Source: Acidobacteriota bacterium
GTDB taxonomy: Bacteria > Acidobacteriota > Blastocatellia > Pyrinomonadales > Pyrinomonadaceae
NCBI GenBank assembly: GCA_029557535.1
Contig: JAKQII010000130.1
Span: forward strand, 1 to 53,879
Reading direction: 5' to 3'
DNA length: 53,879 bases
Under the pieces are notes generated by a model. The model made no database searches. It was not told where the DNA came from and saw only the letters and a program-made list of their open reading frames with translations. Position 1 is the first letter of the stretch; each line of letters begins with the position of its first letter. This document shows, one piece after another, positions 49,323 through 53,879 of this stretch. Both the position numbers and the translations under genes were made by a program.

Positions 49323-49745
49323 ATGAGACTAATCAAACTGACTATCATTGCCTTGGCGGCCGCAATCTTCGCGATCGCATGCGGCGGCGGATCGAACAAT
49401 CAGACCACTTCGAACGCACCGAAGAACACGGCCCCGGCGAACGCGACGCCGGCGGCGTCCGCTACTCCGGACGAACTCGCGGCGGCGAAAAAGATCTATT
49501 CCGAAAAATGCGTCAAATGCCACAAAGAGAACGGCACCGGCGGCGAGACCGACCTCGACGGCGAGAAGATCAAGGCGCCCGATTTCACTGCGGCAAAACT
49601 TAAAGAAGCGTCCGACGACAGCTTTGTCGATACGATCACCAACGGCGAGAAGGAAGAGGGGATGCCCTCCTTCAAGGGCAAACTGACTGACGACGAGATC
49701 AAATCGATGGTGAAGCTGATCCGGAAGGAATTTCAGAAGAAGTAA
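49323..49745 (+). CDS. Cytochrome c lipoprotein (monoheme, class I)
   Basis: 140 residues from ATG 49323, with GGAG eight bases upstream. The signal peptide ends in a lipobox (AIFAIAC, Cys20), giving a membrane-anchored periplasmic protein. An Ala/Thr/Pro linker of about 30 residues follows, then a cytochrome c domain with the heme site CVKCH (residues 63-67) and the distal methionine in EEGMPSFK (near 113). It could pass electrons to the oxidase whose subunit III and assembly factors lie at 35-37 kb. Heme attachment would use ResB/CcsA. Confidence 0.93.
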   Translation: MRLIKLTIIALAAAIFAIACGGGSNNQTTSNAPKNTAPANATPAASATPDELAAAKKIYSEKCVKCHKENGTGGETDLDGEKIKAPDFTAAKLKEASDDSFVDTITNGEKEEGMPSFKGKLTDDEIKSMVKLIRKEFQKK

Positions 49746-49850
49746 TTCAAGAATCAAGATTCACTATTCAAAAATTCAAGAATCAAAAGGTCTAGATGTT
49801 TCTTGGCTCTTGAATTTTGAATCTTGAATTTTGAATCTTGATTCGCGAAT
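49746..49850. repeat. TTGAATC heptamer array, inverted halves
   Basis: The first half reads TTCAAGAATCAAGATTCAC and similar; the second half reads TTGAATTTTGAATCTTGAAT and repeats of it. The halves are complementary over about 25-30 bases, so a hairpin can form between the cytochrome c gene and tRNA-Arg. It is the most regular 7-bp array in the window. Confidence 0.8.
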
Positions 49851-49886
49851 TGTCCTATCGGACGGTGGCCGCTAAAATAGTTCCGA

Positions 49887-49963
49887 GCACCCTTAGCTCA
49901 GTTGAATAGAGCGTCTGACTTCGGATCAGAAGGTCGCAGGTTTGAGTCCTGCAGGGTGTACCA
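49887..49963 (+). tRNA. tRNA-Arg (anticodon TCG)
   Basis: The acceptor GCACCCT (49887-49893) pairs with AGGGTGT (49953-49959) (closing G-T), A73 follows and CCA is encoded (49961-49963). The anticodon arm TCTGA-CTTCGGA-TCAGA gives anticodon TCG, reading the CGA arginine codon. The T arm has GGTTTGAGTCC, with TTTGA for the usual TTCGA. It borders the phage-like cassette and is a likely integration site. Confidence 0.94.
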
Positions 49964-49990
49964 ATCTTTTCAGCACTTTGCGTGATGTTT

Positions 49991-50019
49991 AGGTGAAAGT
50001 CGATGTAAAGCTTTCACCT
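49991..50019. other. Inverted repeat next to the tRNA 3' end
   Basis: AGGTGAAAG (49991-49999) and CTTTCACCT (50011-50019) form perfect 9-bp arms around 11 bp, and two more TTTCACC words follow (near 50024 and 50059). It could be a recombinase binding region of an attachment site or an RNA hairpin; I cannot tell which. Confidence 0.45.
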
Positions 50020-50079
50020 TATTTTCACCCGACAGCCGTAGTATCGCCCGTCTGATGTTTCACCTTAACGCAAAAAGGT

Positions 50080-50130
50080 GCGGCGTCCGAAACCCGCGCG
50101 ATCTGGGCGCAATGCCTCTTCGGACGCCGC
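50080..50130 (-). terminator. Terminator of the minus-strand phage-like cassette
   Basis: GCGGCGTCCGAA (50080-50091) and TTCGGACGCCGC (50119-50130) form a perfect 12-bp stem. On the minus strand the stem is followed by ACCTTTTTG. The loop is 27 nt. From 50131 to 50378 I see only GC-rich non-coding sequence. Confidence 0.7.
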
Positions 50131-50378
50131 GTTTTGCCACCGAACAAACTCCGTTTGCGTCTCACGAAACTCAAAAGAAGCCAAAAGAACGGTGCGCGGT
50201 AACTCGTGCGATCCGTCGTCGGAGGCGGCGTGGGCATCATCACCGGCAAAGATGACCGCTGCCGTTACAATGGGGCGCCGCGGCTGGCGGCCGCGCGCTC
50301 TTACGGGGGAACCGTCACACAACCCCGTGCCGGCTTTTCACCGACAGCCCGTCTCCGACGACGAACTTCCGTAATCCG

Positions 50379-50870
50379 TCAGGTATCGTCCGAAGCGGCA
50401 CGTTTGGCCCGCGTTCGGCGTTTCTCCTCACGGCGCCTCAGGACGTAATCCATTTCCTCTTTGCTCAGTTCAATGCCCAGTGATTTGCCGCCGAGCCGGT
50501 TGAGAACGAGCGGAACGCTGCGCGTGATCTCGGTCGAGAACACCCCGGAAAAACCCGACGCCAGCGCGAACTTCCAGGCATCGTCTTCCACGATCCTGAA
50601 ATGCGCCAGCGTGAGTGCCGTCATCCAGCCGACGAACATGGAGATCCCGATGTTCAGGAAAAAAGTGATCCAGTCGAAGCGGATGCGCGACCGGTCGCGC
50701 TGCTCGACGTATTTCAAGGCGTAACGCACGCCACCGGCCGCTGCGCCGGCAACGCTGATGATAATGATCGCGCGCGGGTCCTCGAAGGCCGCGATCACGG
50801 CAAACAGATAACCGCCCGCCGTCATGAACGTAGTTGGGAGTGACATCAGCAGTTTCATCCTGTAGGGCAT
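50379..50870 (-). CDS. Small multispan membrane protein, possible holin
   Basis: 163 residues with about four hydrophobic segments (TTFMTAGGYLFAVIAAF, AIIIISVAGAAAGGV, WITFFLNIGISMFVGWMTAL, then a weaker one) and a highly charged C-terminal tail (LRRREEKRRTRAKRAASDDT). A membrane protein with several spans and a basic tail in the last position of a phage-like late operon fits a holin, but no signature sequence is recognised. A start at 50870 follows the upstream stop by 3 bp; a second ATG lies 12 bp downstream. Confidence 0.65.
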   Translation of the reverse strand: MPYRMKLLMSLPTTFMTAGGYLFAVIAAFEDPRAIIIISVAGAAAGGVRYALKYVEQRDRSRIRFDWITFFLNIGISMFVGWMTALTLAHFRIVEDDAWKFALASGFSGVFSTEITRSVPLVLNRLGGKSLGIELSKEEMDYVLRRREEKRRTRAKRAASDDT

Positions 50871-50873
50871 TAT

Positions 50874-51689
50874 TTATCTGACCGGCCGGACGATAATGCC
50901 GTCCGCCTGAACAAAGGTACCGTCAGCGGTTGCAAGCCCCTGCACGGCCGTTACTGCCGGCACGCGTGTGCTTTTTGGCGCAACCGCCGAAGACGTTTCC
51001 GGCGGCCGCGGTAAAAGCGGATGGGTCGGACCGTGAATGATCGTCCGCCAGAACCACTCGTAGCCGTCCGGATACGTGTTCGGATTCATCGCCAGTACAA
51101 TATGGTCGAACCCGTTCGGTACTGCTTCACCAAGTATCTCCGGGCAGGCGAACATCTTGCCGGTGCTTCCGTTCGTCCCGAGATCGATCACCATTTCGGC
51201 CGCGAGGATCACCGCGACATCATCCGTCTGATAGAGATAGGTGATGCCGTTGCGGACAACCGGAGACGGCAGTTTCCCTTTCGTGTTCAGCTGATCGTAC
51301 TCGGATCCGTCATACTCGGCCGAGCCCCGGACCTTGAACGAATAGACCCGCTGGACGGGTGACTGAACGCAGTCGGTCCACGGCTGGAACACGGTATAGA
51401 ACTCGGGCTCGAGCGCGAGCGTGTGGCCGTCCTTTCGGGCGACCGCGACCCTTGCCAGAAACCCCTCATCCATTGCCTGCATCTGCGCCGGGGAGAGTGC
51501 CCGGCGGCCGTGCCACCGGATCCCGGCCGGAGACGTTTGCTCGACATCGCCGACGATCGCGTAACCGCCGACCGGCATCTTTTTCCATTCCGCGATCGAG
51601 GACGGCTCGCCGCCTCCGCACTTGAAAGCGAGCGAGCATAGCGCCACGACGCAAACAAGAAGCGCGACCTGGATTGTCCTACTGTTCAT
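50874..51689 (-). CDS. Exported hypothetical protein
   Basis: 271 residues from ATG 51689, which has GAGGAAA upstream and gives a signal peptide (TIQVALLVCVVALCSLAF). A lipid attachment at Cys24 is possible but the lipobox is poor. The mature part is Tyr- and Trp-rich (EPEFYTVFQPWTDCV, YPDGYEWFWRTIIHGPTHPL) with no known domain. Several Cys residues could form disulphides. It overlaps the next upstream gene by 11 bp in a different frame. Confidence 0.7.
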   Translation of the reverse strand: MNSRTIQVALLVCVVALCSLAFKCGGGEPSSIAEWKKMPVGGYAIVGDVEQTSPAGIRWHGRRALSPAQMQAMDEGFLARVAVARKDGHTLALEPEFYTVFQPWTDCVQSPVQRVYSFKVRGSAEYDGSEYDQLNTKGKLPSPVVRNGITYLYQTDDVAVILAAEMVIDLGTNGSTGKMFACPEILGEAVPNGFDHIVLAMNPNTYPDGYEWFWRTIIHGPTHPLLPRPPETSSAVAPKSTRVPAVTAVQGLATADGTFVQADGIIVRPVR

Positions 51690-51846
51690 CGGTCTTTTCC
51701 TCGTGGCCTTCGAGCAGAAGGTTCTTGGCGTTCTCCTCGACATCGACCCACGTCTTTGCCTCGGAAAGCGTCACGTCCCCAAGCGTGTCGATCAGGATTC
51801 GGAGAATCTTCGAGATGGTCTCCGATGCGGATTGTTCAGGCGTCAT
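51679..51846 (-). CDS. Small acidic protein (55 residues)
   Basis: Reading the minus strand from ATG 51846 gives MTPEQSASETISKILRILID, then a helical, acidic tail ending EEKTDEQ. GGAGG sits four bases upstream, and its start overlaps the stop of the preceding gene (ATGA). The next gene starts before its own stop. This coupling makes it a real gene despite its size. Soluble; function unknown. Confidence 0.75.
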   Translation of the reverse strand: MTPEQSASETISKILRILIDTLGDVTLSEAKTWVDVEENAKNLLLEGHEEKTDEQ

Positions 51847-52322
51847 ACGGCCTCCAATTGCGTCCGTACCGCCGTGCCCCGTCCGAACGCCTTGGCGATG
51901 GTCAGAACAGCGAGCCGGAGCAGGTCAATAACCTCACCGATCCGTGAATCGGCCGGAAGTACTTTCAGGGTGCGCAGCACGTCAAGGAACTTGCCGACAA
52001 CGAGGGAACTGAATACCTCGAAGAGTTTGTCGATCTCCGGACGCGGCACGTCCGGGCCGTAAGCGGCCTTGAGCCCCTTTACCGTTTCGTCGAACGTCTG
52101 CCCGGCCTGCGCAAGCGCGATAAAGCCGGTCGCGACCTTATCCTTTTGCTCGAGCGTCAGGAGTTGCTCGCGGAACATCGCCCGCGTTATCTCGACGCCC
52201 TGATTGGCGTAACCGGCAAGCTGCGCCGACTTCTTCTCGGCGGTCTCGATCGTCTTCGACGGGCAGGCCGTGCCGATGACCGCGATGGTCAGTATCAACA
52301 GATAAGCAATTGTCCGTTTCAT
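51843..52322 (-). CDS. Small lipoprotein of the phage-like cassette
   Basis: 159 residues with a signal peptide and lipobox-like end (LILTIAVIGTAC, Cys20). The mature part is predicted mostly helical with an Ala/Leu-rich heptad-like middle (VATGFIALAQAGQTFDETVK). Its start overlaps the upstream membrane-protein stop, and its stop overlaps the ATG of the 55-residue gene. No family recognised; a membrane-tethered helical lipoprotein next to small membrane proteins could be an o-spanin-type protein, which is guesswork. Confidence 0.7.
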   Translation of the reverse strand: MKRTIAYLLILTIAVIGTACPSKTIETAEKKSAQLAGYANQGVEITRAMFREQLLTLEQKDKVATGFIALAQAGQTFDETVKGLKAAYGPDVPRPEIDKLFEVFSSLVVGKFLDVLRTLKVLPADSRIGEVIDLLRLAVLTIAKAFGRGTAVRTQLEAV

Positions 52323-52633
52323 TCAGATTTCCCTTTTGCCAGCACAAGCGCCGTGATCGCGGCGCCGATGACGGCATTGCTTGTGATCTCGACCGGCAGT
52401 CCCGCCTGCGAGAGCAGGGACGAGAGGCCGGCGGGATCAGCAAGCATCAACAGTTGAATAAGCAGAACGCCGATCCCGATCAGGAGCAGGCGGCCTTGGT
52501 TCTCCGCGAGAAAGATGCGGAACGAAAAGTGATCTCCGGCCGTCGTGACCGCGCGGAACCAGAGCGGAACAAGCGCACCGACTGCGCACGTGAAAACAGC
52601 GAGCAGAAACGTGATTAGGGTAGAACGTGTCAT
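52319..52633 (-). CDS. Small membrane protein, holin candidate
   Basis: 104 residues with GGAGGATAA just before ATG 52633. Three hydrophobic stretches (LITFLLAVFTCAVGALVPLW, LLLIGIGVLLIQLLMLAD, AVIGAAITALVLA) and a short charged end. Size and position fit a holin. The 3' end overlaps the lipoprotein start. Confidence 0.7.
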   Translation of the reverse strand: MTRSTLITFLLAVFTCAVGALVPLWFRAVTTAGDHFSFRIFLAENQGRLLLIGIGVLLIQLLMLADPAGLSSLLSQAGLPVEITSNAVIGAAITALVLAKGKSE

Positions 52634-52742
52634 TTATCCTCCGGGCGGCTGCGTAAATCATCACGAACAGCACTGTCAGAGCACCGATGAGCGCCACGAC
52701 CGTGATGAGGAACAGCAGCCATTGTTTTTCAAACTTAGTCAT
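52437..52742 (-). CDS. Possible short membrane peptide overlapping the holin candidate
   Basis: The frame opens at ATG 52742 with a good transmembrane helix (WLLFLITVVALIGALTVLFV) followed by MIYAAARR, and then reads through in a different frame from the next gene for about 195 bases. The tail is Arg/Pro/His-rich and looks like an accidental translation. Only the first 40 residues carry signal, so the real product may be truncated, or the frame may contain a sequencing error. Function unknown. Confidence 0.35.
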   Translation of the reverse strand: MTKFEKQWLLFLITVVALIGALTVLFVMIYAAARRINDTFYPNHVSARCFHVRSRCACSALVPRGHDGRRSLFVPHLSRGEPRPPAPDRDRRSAYSTVDAC

Positions 52743-52888
52743 CCGACCCCCGACCGCCGGCGCGGGAGAACCGCGAATCAGGCGGGAAGAAAAACGCAGA
52801 TGCGTTCGGTGTAGCTACACCTGACTTGCGCGCTTCCCGACGCGCCGTCGATCGAGACTAACCGGCCGGCTTTGCGCCGGCCTCACGT

Positions 52889-53476
52889 CTAAAATTCGCG
52901 CAGCAGGACATAAGTCAAACGCTTGTTGTCCGCGGTGCGCTGCATAAAATCGTTGAATCCCTGCCGGTTGCCGAACACTTGGCAACCGAGCGACCATCCG
53001 CCGATGAACTGACGGATCGTGGTTGCGGCCGAGTTGTAGTTGCTTGGGTGGATATTGATCCCGAACAACCCCTTGTCGAGCATCCCCTTTTCCGTGTTCT
53101 TGGAATCACGGTCGCTGTCGCGCCAGACGGGGAGCGGTTCGCACTGGACCCACGCGCGGACCTTGCCGCGGTGCATCCCGTGCTGCCAGCACTCGTAGTA
53201 CCATTCATTCGCTTTGAGAACCGCGGTCCCTTTCGGGTTCTGCGGATACCTCAGGCCGGAGAGTCCGGCATTGGTCGTGAAATCCCGATAGACCTGAAGG
53301 AACTTCGGATCCGCGCCGCCGGCCGTTCCGTCAAAGAGATAGAGCTTGTCGTCGAACCGGTCGGGAAGATCCGCGGCGGAACGCACGCCGATCCCGAACG
53401 GTTTTGTCGGCCAGCCCTTGAACGAGTCGAGGGACTTGGCCTGCGTCAAAAGTTGTTCGTCGGTATAGATTTTCAT
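52889..53476 (-). CDS. Endolysin-like protein with L,D-transpeptidase-type His-Ser-Gly-Cys motif
   Basis: 195 residues without a signal peptide. The C-terminal half contains GLFGINIHPSNYN, then IGGWSLGCQVFGNRQGF. The order His-(x)n-Ser-x-Gly-Cys is that of the YkuD-type L,D-transpeptidase catalytic site, although I cannot confirm the fold. The N-terminus is Lys/Asp-rich (YTDEQLLTQAKSLDSFKGWP). In a phage-like cassette, a peptidoglycan-acting enzyme without a signal peptide fits an endolysin. The ATG overlaps the upstream stop (TGATG). The 146 bp between this gene and the next (52743-52888) hold no gene. Confidence 0.6.
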   Translation of the reverse strand: MKIYTDEQLLTQAKSLDSFKGWPTKPFGIGVRSAADLPDRFDDKLYLFDGTAGGADPKFLQVYRDFTTNAGLSGLRYPQNPKGTAVLKANEWYYECWQHGMHRGKVRAWVQCEPLPVWRDSDRDSKNTEKGMLDKGLFGINIHPSNYNSAATTIRQFIGGWSLGCQVFGNRQGFNDFMQRTADNKRLTYVLLREF

Positions 53477-53879
53477 CAGTTCATCCTCACGGTTCCTGAG
53501 AGCTTCACTGTGCCTGTAGTTGAGTTGCTGGTGCCGCCTCCGCCCTCCGCGCCGGGAACAAGGATCATCGCGCAGAAATCGGGGCAGGTGGTCGGGGGCG
53601 TGTAGCCGAGCCCGACCGGGGCCGCGACGTTGAGCGCCGCGCCGTTCAGCGGGACGCTGACCGTAGGCGAACCGGAGTTGTACGTTCCGGTCGCGACAAC
53701 AGGACCAAAATAATCGAAAGCATTCCTAATCTCGTATCCCTGTCCGTTCACGAGGCCTAGTTGGGAAAGGTCAACATTGACCGATGTTGCACCATTTGCA
53801 TAAACTAGGACGTTACCACGACCTGTTTGATATGAATTCGGTCGCACGACAACCGTGGTTGGCATCGGTGTCGATGTTT
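53476..53879 (-). CDS. C-terminal part of a larger exported or tail-type protein, cut by the window edge
   Basis: The frame stays open to the window end, so the N-terminus is missing. The visible part reads as a beta-rich protein with Gly/Thr/Val/Asn repeats (GNVLVYANGATSVNVDLSQL, then FDYFGPVVATGTYNSGSPTV). The last 40 residues are Gly/Ser/Thr-rich (GAEGGGGTSNSTTGTVKLSG). Tail or surface beta-helix proteins look like this, but no family is recognised. Its stop overlaps the endolysin-like start. Confidence 0.6.
   Translation of the reverse strand, partial: TSTPMPTTVVVRPNSYQTGRGNVLVYANGATSVNVDLSQLGLVNGQGYEIRNAFDYFGPVVATGTYNSGSPTVSVPLNGAALNVAAPVGLGYTPPTTCPDFCAMILVPGAEGGGGTSNSTTGTVKLSGTVRMN

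Follow-up and report, generated by a model that had tools for sequence, protein, structure and literature searches.

We examined the right-hand end of contig JAKQII010000130.1 of an Acidobacteriota bacterium (53,879 nucleotides, hereafter the window; C181 among the 404 contigs of its genome), where a run of minus-strand open reading frames (ORFs) begins just past a tRNA-Arg(TCG) gene. A reading made from the sequence only had described this run as a tRNA-bordered, phage-like cassette. Examination of the contig ends by searches and comparison with related genomes reveal that the window ends inside a tyrosine-integrase prophage inserted at the 3' end of the tRNA gene, and that the 4 kb of it within the window are its terminal, late lysis end. 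We also present evidence that its lysis enzyme is probably a 195-aa protein with a predicted L,D-transpeptidase (YkuD) fold, a member of a widely distributed phage family, PHROG 3000.

In order of transcription the cassette comprises the C-terminus of a beta-helix-like protein, the 195-aa enzyme, a 101-aa ORF and proteins of 104, 159, 55, 271 and 163 aa (Table 1). The stop codon of the beta-helix gene and the start codon of the enzyme gene overlap as TGATG, the 104-aa/159-aa and 159-aa/55-aa junctions are ATGA-type overlaps, and the 55-aa and 271-aa genes share 11 nt, which bears out the translational coupling proposed in the sequence-only reading. The inverted repeat and the minus-strand terminator that it placed after the tRNA were likewise recovered; the latter, a terminator-like hairpin, folds on the minus strand with -37 kcal/mol (z -2.6) and is followed by UUUUU. 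With a loop of more than 8 it is overlooked by a simple terminator scan. The count of eight minus-strand genes holds at the level of ORFs, including one that runs off the window end, with the qualifications that the 101-aa ORF is credible in its start only and that the last ORF is only the 3' part of a longer gene, which extends onto contig C398.

Table 1. Features at the right-hand end of the window
Feature	Coordinates	Strand	Evidence
Cytochrome c-type lipoprotein (host), left chromosomal flank	49323..49745	+	Pfam Cytochrome_CBB3, 1.7e-12; orthologue flanks uninterrupted tRNA-Arg in relative G076
tRNA-Arg(TCG), integration target	49887..49963	+	ARAGORN
Attachment core, 45 bp, anticodon loop to CCA end	49919..49963	+	identical to contig C7 (L011) 1629-1673
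Inverted repeat past the tRNA, 18-nt arms, 78% complementary	49982..50028	.	
Perfect 12-bp inverted repeat and minus-strand U-tract, probable lysis operon terminator	50080..50130	-	folding
163-aa membrane protein, holin-like (LydA / Phage_holin_3_3)	50379..50870	-	Pfam, phrog_785, two predicted transmembrane stretches
271-aa probable lipoprotein, Tyr/Trp-rich	50874..51689	-	signal peptide with AFKC
55-aa acidic protein, coupled to both neighbours	51679..51846	-	no family match
159-aa probable helical lipoprotein	51843..52322	-	signal peptide ending GTAC
104-aa protein, three predicted transmembrane stretches, holin candidate	52319..52633	-	
101-aa ORF, one transmembrane stretch, only first ~35 codons credible	52437..52742	-	
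195-aa enzyme of predicted L,D-transpeptidase fold (PHROG 3000), candidate endolysin	52889..53476	-	His143 ... Ser162-x-Gly164-Cys165
Secreted beta-helix-like protein, C-terminus; starts on contig C398 (L010:3025)	53476..53879	-	exact 141-bp overlap, continuous frame

Predicted fold and distribution of the 195-aa enzyme

The 195-aa enzyme matches phrog_3000, a family labelled 'unknown function' (E = 5.6e-23). It has no relevant sequence match in Pfam, NCBIfam or PDB, and neither the enzyme nor 10 of its relatives matched the Pfam models of the classical endolysin families (GH24, amidase, M15, CHAP, NlpC/P60 and others). Single-sequence queries of viral contigs recovered no close relatives, and a profile was therefore needed; a profile scan confirmed at least 590 relatives among 600 candidate viral-contig stretches. 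Ten residues are invariant in 33 diverse members, namely R32, D43, H102, R119, D120, N141, H143, S162, G164 and C165. Among the aligned relatives 33 of 33 match phrog_3000 and 32 of 33 match phrog_33083, which is labelled 'endolysin'.

The AlphaFold2 model of the enzyme has a predicted local distance difference test score (pLDDT) of 93.8 and a predicted template-modelling score of 0.90. In structural comparisons every one of the top 19 rows is an L,D-transpeptidase or an LD-carboxypeptidase (Z 6.4-10.2), and the next, an unrelated fold, scores Z 2.8. The leading matches are Pgp2 (Z 10.2, 132 aligned, 3.7 A), Csd6 (9.8), Bd1075 (9.3) and LDT-Go (9.3 over 159 residues), with mycobacterial L,D-transpeptidases, DpaA, YcbB and others among the further top rows; a plain Foldseek search concurs for Pgp2 (7.6e-04). 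Moreover, the invariant GINIH ... WSxGCQV represents the His and Ser-x-Gly-Cys of the superfamily, which appear as VHGGG ... WTWGCIA in a YkuD protein of the host itself. The model and motif together predict an L,D-transpeptidase (YkuD) fold for the 195-aa enzyme. The label 'endolysin-like' given to it earlier finds no endolysin family match in Pfam, and is retained as that of a candidate endolysin on the strength of predicted fold, motif and neighbourhood.

In bacterial genome contigs 287 relatives were recovered, the best 80 of which are mostly from Bacteroidota, and the family is rare in the phylum of the present host (4 of 396 genomes). Nearly all members in annotated phage records are labelled 'hypothetical protein', and a structural match in BFVD (A0A8D9C939) is named 'Lysin'. 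The gene-neighborhoods of the viral relatives are rich in small membrane proteins: a transmembrane stretch is present in 62 of 76, 56 of 71 and 45 of 65 of the genes at positions +1, +2 and +3 downstream, against 264 of 1091 plus-strand ORFs (24%) at the same loci, and some of these neighbours are Rz-like spanins (phrog_739) or holins. In 14 loci the 133 neighbour proteins included portal, holin and other phage families and no Pfam peptidoglycan-hydrolase family.

The family is also found in cultured phages. Homologues with the same motif are gp35 of the Pseudoalteromonas phages ACA1 and ACA2 and gp5 of the Bacteroides phage crAss002, all of which have annotated holins and no identified endolysin (in crAss002, no annotated one). 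A Pfam scan of 82 mostly unassigned proteins of ACA1, crAss002 and the Bdellovibrio phage phi1422 gave no peptidoglycan hydrolase among the matches listed, which covered 25 of 26 families.

Three relatives in other genomes of the host's phylum have chromosomal surroundings in which no phage genes are obvious (L025:13206-13775, L117:9457-10404 and L118:8025-9887), one of them beside a small membrane protein and one inside a 620-aa protein; such relatives are possibly domesticated lysis genes.

Integration site and contigs of the prophage

The last 45 bp of the tRNA-Arg gene recur with no mismatch on contig C7 of the same genome (L011:1629-1673), a match whose expectation by chance between the window and the C7 stretches is ~1e-19. 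This copy lies 180 bp past the gene of a tyrosine integrase (L011:184-1449, 421 aa; PF00589, 2.5e-18; phrog_1, 2.2e-50), and to its right C7 runs on into chromosomal genes. The relative G076 has an empty site, with an uninterrupted arrangement of cytochrome c, intact tRNA-Arg(TCG), a 310-aa gene and histidine ammonia-lyase; the 310-aa gene is the orthologue of the first C7 gene (56%), and the histidine ammonia-lyase stands at 69%. A second relative, G066, provides the right flank only, in which the tRNA-Arg adjoins the 310-aa gene and histidine ammonia-lyase. Given the attachment-site (att) repeat and the empty site in relatives, C181 and C7 therefore bracket one insertion that is missing from those relatives. 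The second copy of the tRNA 3' end and the integrase, both predicted by the sequence-only reading to lie beyond the window, are thus in place on C7, and with the empty site they uphold the phage interpretation of the cassette. A prophage at a tRNA gene is in itself ordinary. We also noted a ~45-bp dispersed repeat in the interval from the cytochrome c gene to the tRNA (window 49800-49851), found at dozens of further places in the same genome with 81-100% identity.

The phage-side end of the window and contig C398 (L010) have exactly 141 bp in common, in reversed orientation; contig C245 also ends in such an overlap with C398, indicating an assembly fork. C398 codes for a tail-fibre-like ORF, a LamG-domain protein (PF13385, 1.5e-08), a 470-aa protein with a very weak glycoside hydrolase family 30 (GH30)-like match, and the beta-helix protein that continues into the window. 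The latter three have Sec-type N-termini as read from the sequence; three consecutive genes with Sec signals between a tail fibre and the lysis enzyme (L010:807-4557) are unusual for tail proteins, and the products are possibly secreted depolymerases that leave the cell ahead of lysis or during it. The 'host-interaction' role once suggested for the window genes fits these adjoining genes (tail fibre and secreted lectin, glycosidase and beta-helix) better.

Parts of the beta-helix gene recur elsewhere in the genome. Segments of it (window 53686-53879 and L010:3094-3325) show 95% identity over 232 bp to the end of C347 (L018 11556-11786), a host contig with an FG-GAP/linker protein beside exopolysaccharide-type genes, in which the beta-helix copy is frameshifted. 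There is also 99% identity over 194 bp to the end of C245 (L009 4729-4922), which has glycosyltransferase-type genes. These similarities suggest an exchange between a polysaccharide-active gene of the prophage and a surface-polysaccharide locus of the host. C245 further contains PqqD-like, transglutaminase-like and shortened asparagine-synthase-like ORFs (L009 3235-4347), ending beside the beta-helix copy and resembling, by eye, a broken lasso-peptide cluster.

Structural genes had also been expected beyond the window, and the genome does contain them, on a contig (C64) that is not joined to it. The C64 head-tail module comprises an HK97-type capsid with fused protease (PF05065, 2.1e-35; phrog_617, 1.9e-64), a tape measure and a tail tip (Phage-tail_3). 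As the capsid is the sole PF05065 match in the genome, and the PF00589 matches number only four, including that on C7 and two that look Xer recombinase-like by strength and size, the module probably belongs to the same prophage, though it is not physically joined to C398 or C7. Relatives of the capsid in 68 viral contigs, considered as a bridge, have the capsid in common, in some cases also a neighbour and the tape measure, and no lysis, fibre or integrase gene, and hence give no proof that C64 belongs here; tetranucleotide profiles did not discriminate either. The tape measure (L201:5589-8210) has a weak peptidase/baseplate-hub-like segment at residues ~358-453 (phrog_21656, phrog_196), possibly an entry enzyme.

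Membrane proteins and probable lipoproteins of the cassette

The 163-aa protein matches the Pfam LydA / Phage_holin_3_3 family over 78 residues (5.1e-06) and the phrog_785 holins (5.1e-06); it differs from the LydA holins in a longer C-terminal tail, and its score of 26.9 bits falls short of the curated cut-off (28.4). The 271-aa protein, described earlier as exported and Tyr/Trp-rich, is itself a probable lipoprotein, with its coupled start at 51689 and not at 51743. It has no Pfam, PHROG or phage tblastn match, and its single-sequence structure was useless (pLDDT 34). The 55-aa protein matches no Pfam or PHROG family, and the 159-aa lipoprotein has no relative in phage records; as a candidate outer-membrane lysis factor the latter is speculative. 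Two probable lipoproteins sit where such a factor would be expected, neither with a supporting relative, and Pfam and PHROG yielded no spanin family match and no clear inner-membrane spanin. The other cassette genes have no relatives in annotated phages, and single-sequence queries of viral contigs with a 289-aa ORF and the 163-aa protein recovered no close ones; most of the cassette besides the enzyme consists of orphans. Taken together, a LydA-near holin-like protein, membrane and lipoprotein genes devoid of relatives, and an enzyme of predicted L,D-transpeptidase fold in place of the known endolysin families agree with the earlier view of a lysis module unlike standard ones.

The 101-aa ORF was rejected as a full gene, as beyond its first ~35 codons it lies under the next gene and its G+C content at third codon positions is 0.51, compared with 0.69-0.77 in the other cassette ORFs. 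The same low value, and an overlapped partner that is not a lipoprotein, led us to reject nested Rz/Rz1-type spanins at this place.

Proposed lysis mechanism, alternatives and comparison with known systems

On the minus strand the tail-fibre and secreted polysaccharide-active genes of C398 lead, through translational coupling, into the lysis genes, arranged as signal-less enzyme, small membrane proteins (holin candidates), two probable lipoproteins, LydA-like holin candidate, and probable terminator beside the att site. The cysteine of the YkuD superfamily acts on bonds that join an L- to a D-centre. In the mechanism that we propose, the enzyme, as it has no signal peptide, would stay cytoplasmic until the inner membrane is opened by holins (candidates being the 104-aa and 163-aa proteins) and it can escape. 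Its Cys165/His143 pair would then attack an L-D bond of the peptidoglycan stem peptides (mDAP3-D-Ala4 or L-Ala1-D-Glu2, mDAP being meso-diaminopimelate), and hydrolysis of the acyl-enzyme would cut the wall, as by an endolysin, while the lipoproteins may help to breach the outer membrane. That the enzyme would hydrolyse rather than cross-link is what we infer; transpeptidase, carboxypeptidase and endopeptidase activities have all been described for YkuD enzymes (PMC12729407), and the latter two provide a precedent for proteins of this fold cleaving stem peptides or cross-links. Overall, we give a probability of about 0.7 to the interpretation that this is the lysis end of a prophage at tRNA-Arg with an endolysin of L,D-transpeptidase fold. 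We also consider it fairly likely that PHROG 3000 represents a class of phage endolysins of this fold that is widespread and has gone unrecognised, and that would supply the missing endolysin of ACA1/ACA2 and crAss002 as well as the lysis enzyme of the present prophage.

Several observations weigh against this interpretation. Neither the enzyme nor 10 of its relatives match the Pfam YkuD model (PF03734), and hhalign gave no signal between the enzyme family and the YkuD protein encoded by the host (L292:1411-1953); as profiles do not connect the enzyme to YkuD, it is assigned by its predicted fold and motif. An L,D-transpeptidase can form cross-links instead of cutting them, and it is cleavage that the proposed mechanism requires of the enzyme. 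In a few loci (L047, L048) a lysozyme-like gene stands beside the family member, and a few relatives lie in stretches of bacterial chromosome where no phage genes are evident. With regard to the element as a whole, the phrog_2 search of its own genome gave no acceptable terminase (a weak match was rejected on reading the locus, being a PhoH-like ORF), a PF04860 search of the assembly gave no HK97 portal, and no overlap joins C64 to C398 or C7. Finally, ACA1 gp35 is encoded between the tail tube and tail chaperone genes, where a virion role is possible.

This last position bears on the alternative that fares best, namely that the enzyme acts on peptidoglycan during entry, as a component of the virion or tail, and is not an endolysin. 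The absence of a signal peptide and the location directly after tail-fibre and beta-helix genes in the present prophage would also agree with it. However, P2-like phages normally house their lysis module among tail genes (PMC10612066), the genes that follow it across the family encode small membrane proteins, and the weak peptidase/baseplate-hub-like segment of the C64 tape measure could serve entry instead; an entry role thus strikes us as unlikely. Alternatively, the enzyme might modify the wall, by cross-linking or LD-carboxypeptidase trimming, and so shield the infected cell, postpone lysis or keep out other phages. The closest folds do include LD-carboxypeptidases (Pgp2, Csd6 and Bd1075) along with transpeptidases, and the range of YkuD activities cited above would accommodate such a role, but an enzyme that has no signal peptide would need release by holins, no other peptidoglycan hydrolase was recognised in most of the loci examined, and the related PHROG is labelled endolysin, which leaves wall modification a quite unlikely prospect. 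It is highly improbable that, instead of a prophage, the element at the tRNA is a genomic island or a cluster for phage-derived particles (tailocin or gene-transfer-agent-like): the missing terminase and portal and the division over several contigs would fit, but an HK97 capsid with fused protease and a tape measure are present, as are integrase, att and lysis genes, and an assembly of 404 contigs loses parts, the outer ends of C398 and C7 being dead ends.

Should PHROG 3000 be an endolysin family as we propose, it would fill a gap in cultured phages, of at least two kinds, with holins and no identified endolysin, add a rarely recorded fold to the phage lysis enzymes, and offer a prediction testable in culturable phages (ACA1 gp35 and crAss002 gp5). 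It would also mean that phages infecting Bacteroidota, Pseudoalteromonas, Bdellovibrio and the present host have adapted the catalytic machinery of wall cross-linkers to cutting the wall, the gene being carried by hundreds of phage contigs. Both the L,D-transpeptidase fold and catalytic motif of PHROG 3000 and its fit as the missing endolysin of the ACA and crAss002 types appear to be unrecorded in the literature and libraries consulted.

Among the known systems, PHROG 3000 and 33083 are themselves entries that give no fold or mechanism, and the window enzyme does not reach phrog_33083 at E 0.001. The 195-aa enzyme resembles the YkuD-fold enzymes Pgp2, Csd6, Bd1075, LDT-Go and DpaA in predicted fold and in the His...Ser-x-Gly-Cys arrangement, and differs from these in having neither a signal peptide nor a PF03734 match, in its setting in a phage lysis cassette, and in a structural-alignment identity of 12-14%. 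The cultured phages that share the homologous gene differ in virion type and in the gene order around it, ACA1/ACA2 being P2-like and crAss002 crAss-like. YkuD domains in phage lytic proteins are on record but rare: PhaLP lists 10 such proteins (PMC8310338), and among gut phage endolysins there is one multidomain protein combining GH25, choline-binding and YkuD domains (PMC13284279). Those catalogued lysins were found via existing YkuD models, whereas the PHROG 3000 family consists of stand-alone proteins of ~180 aa with no Pfam model match.

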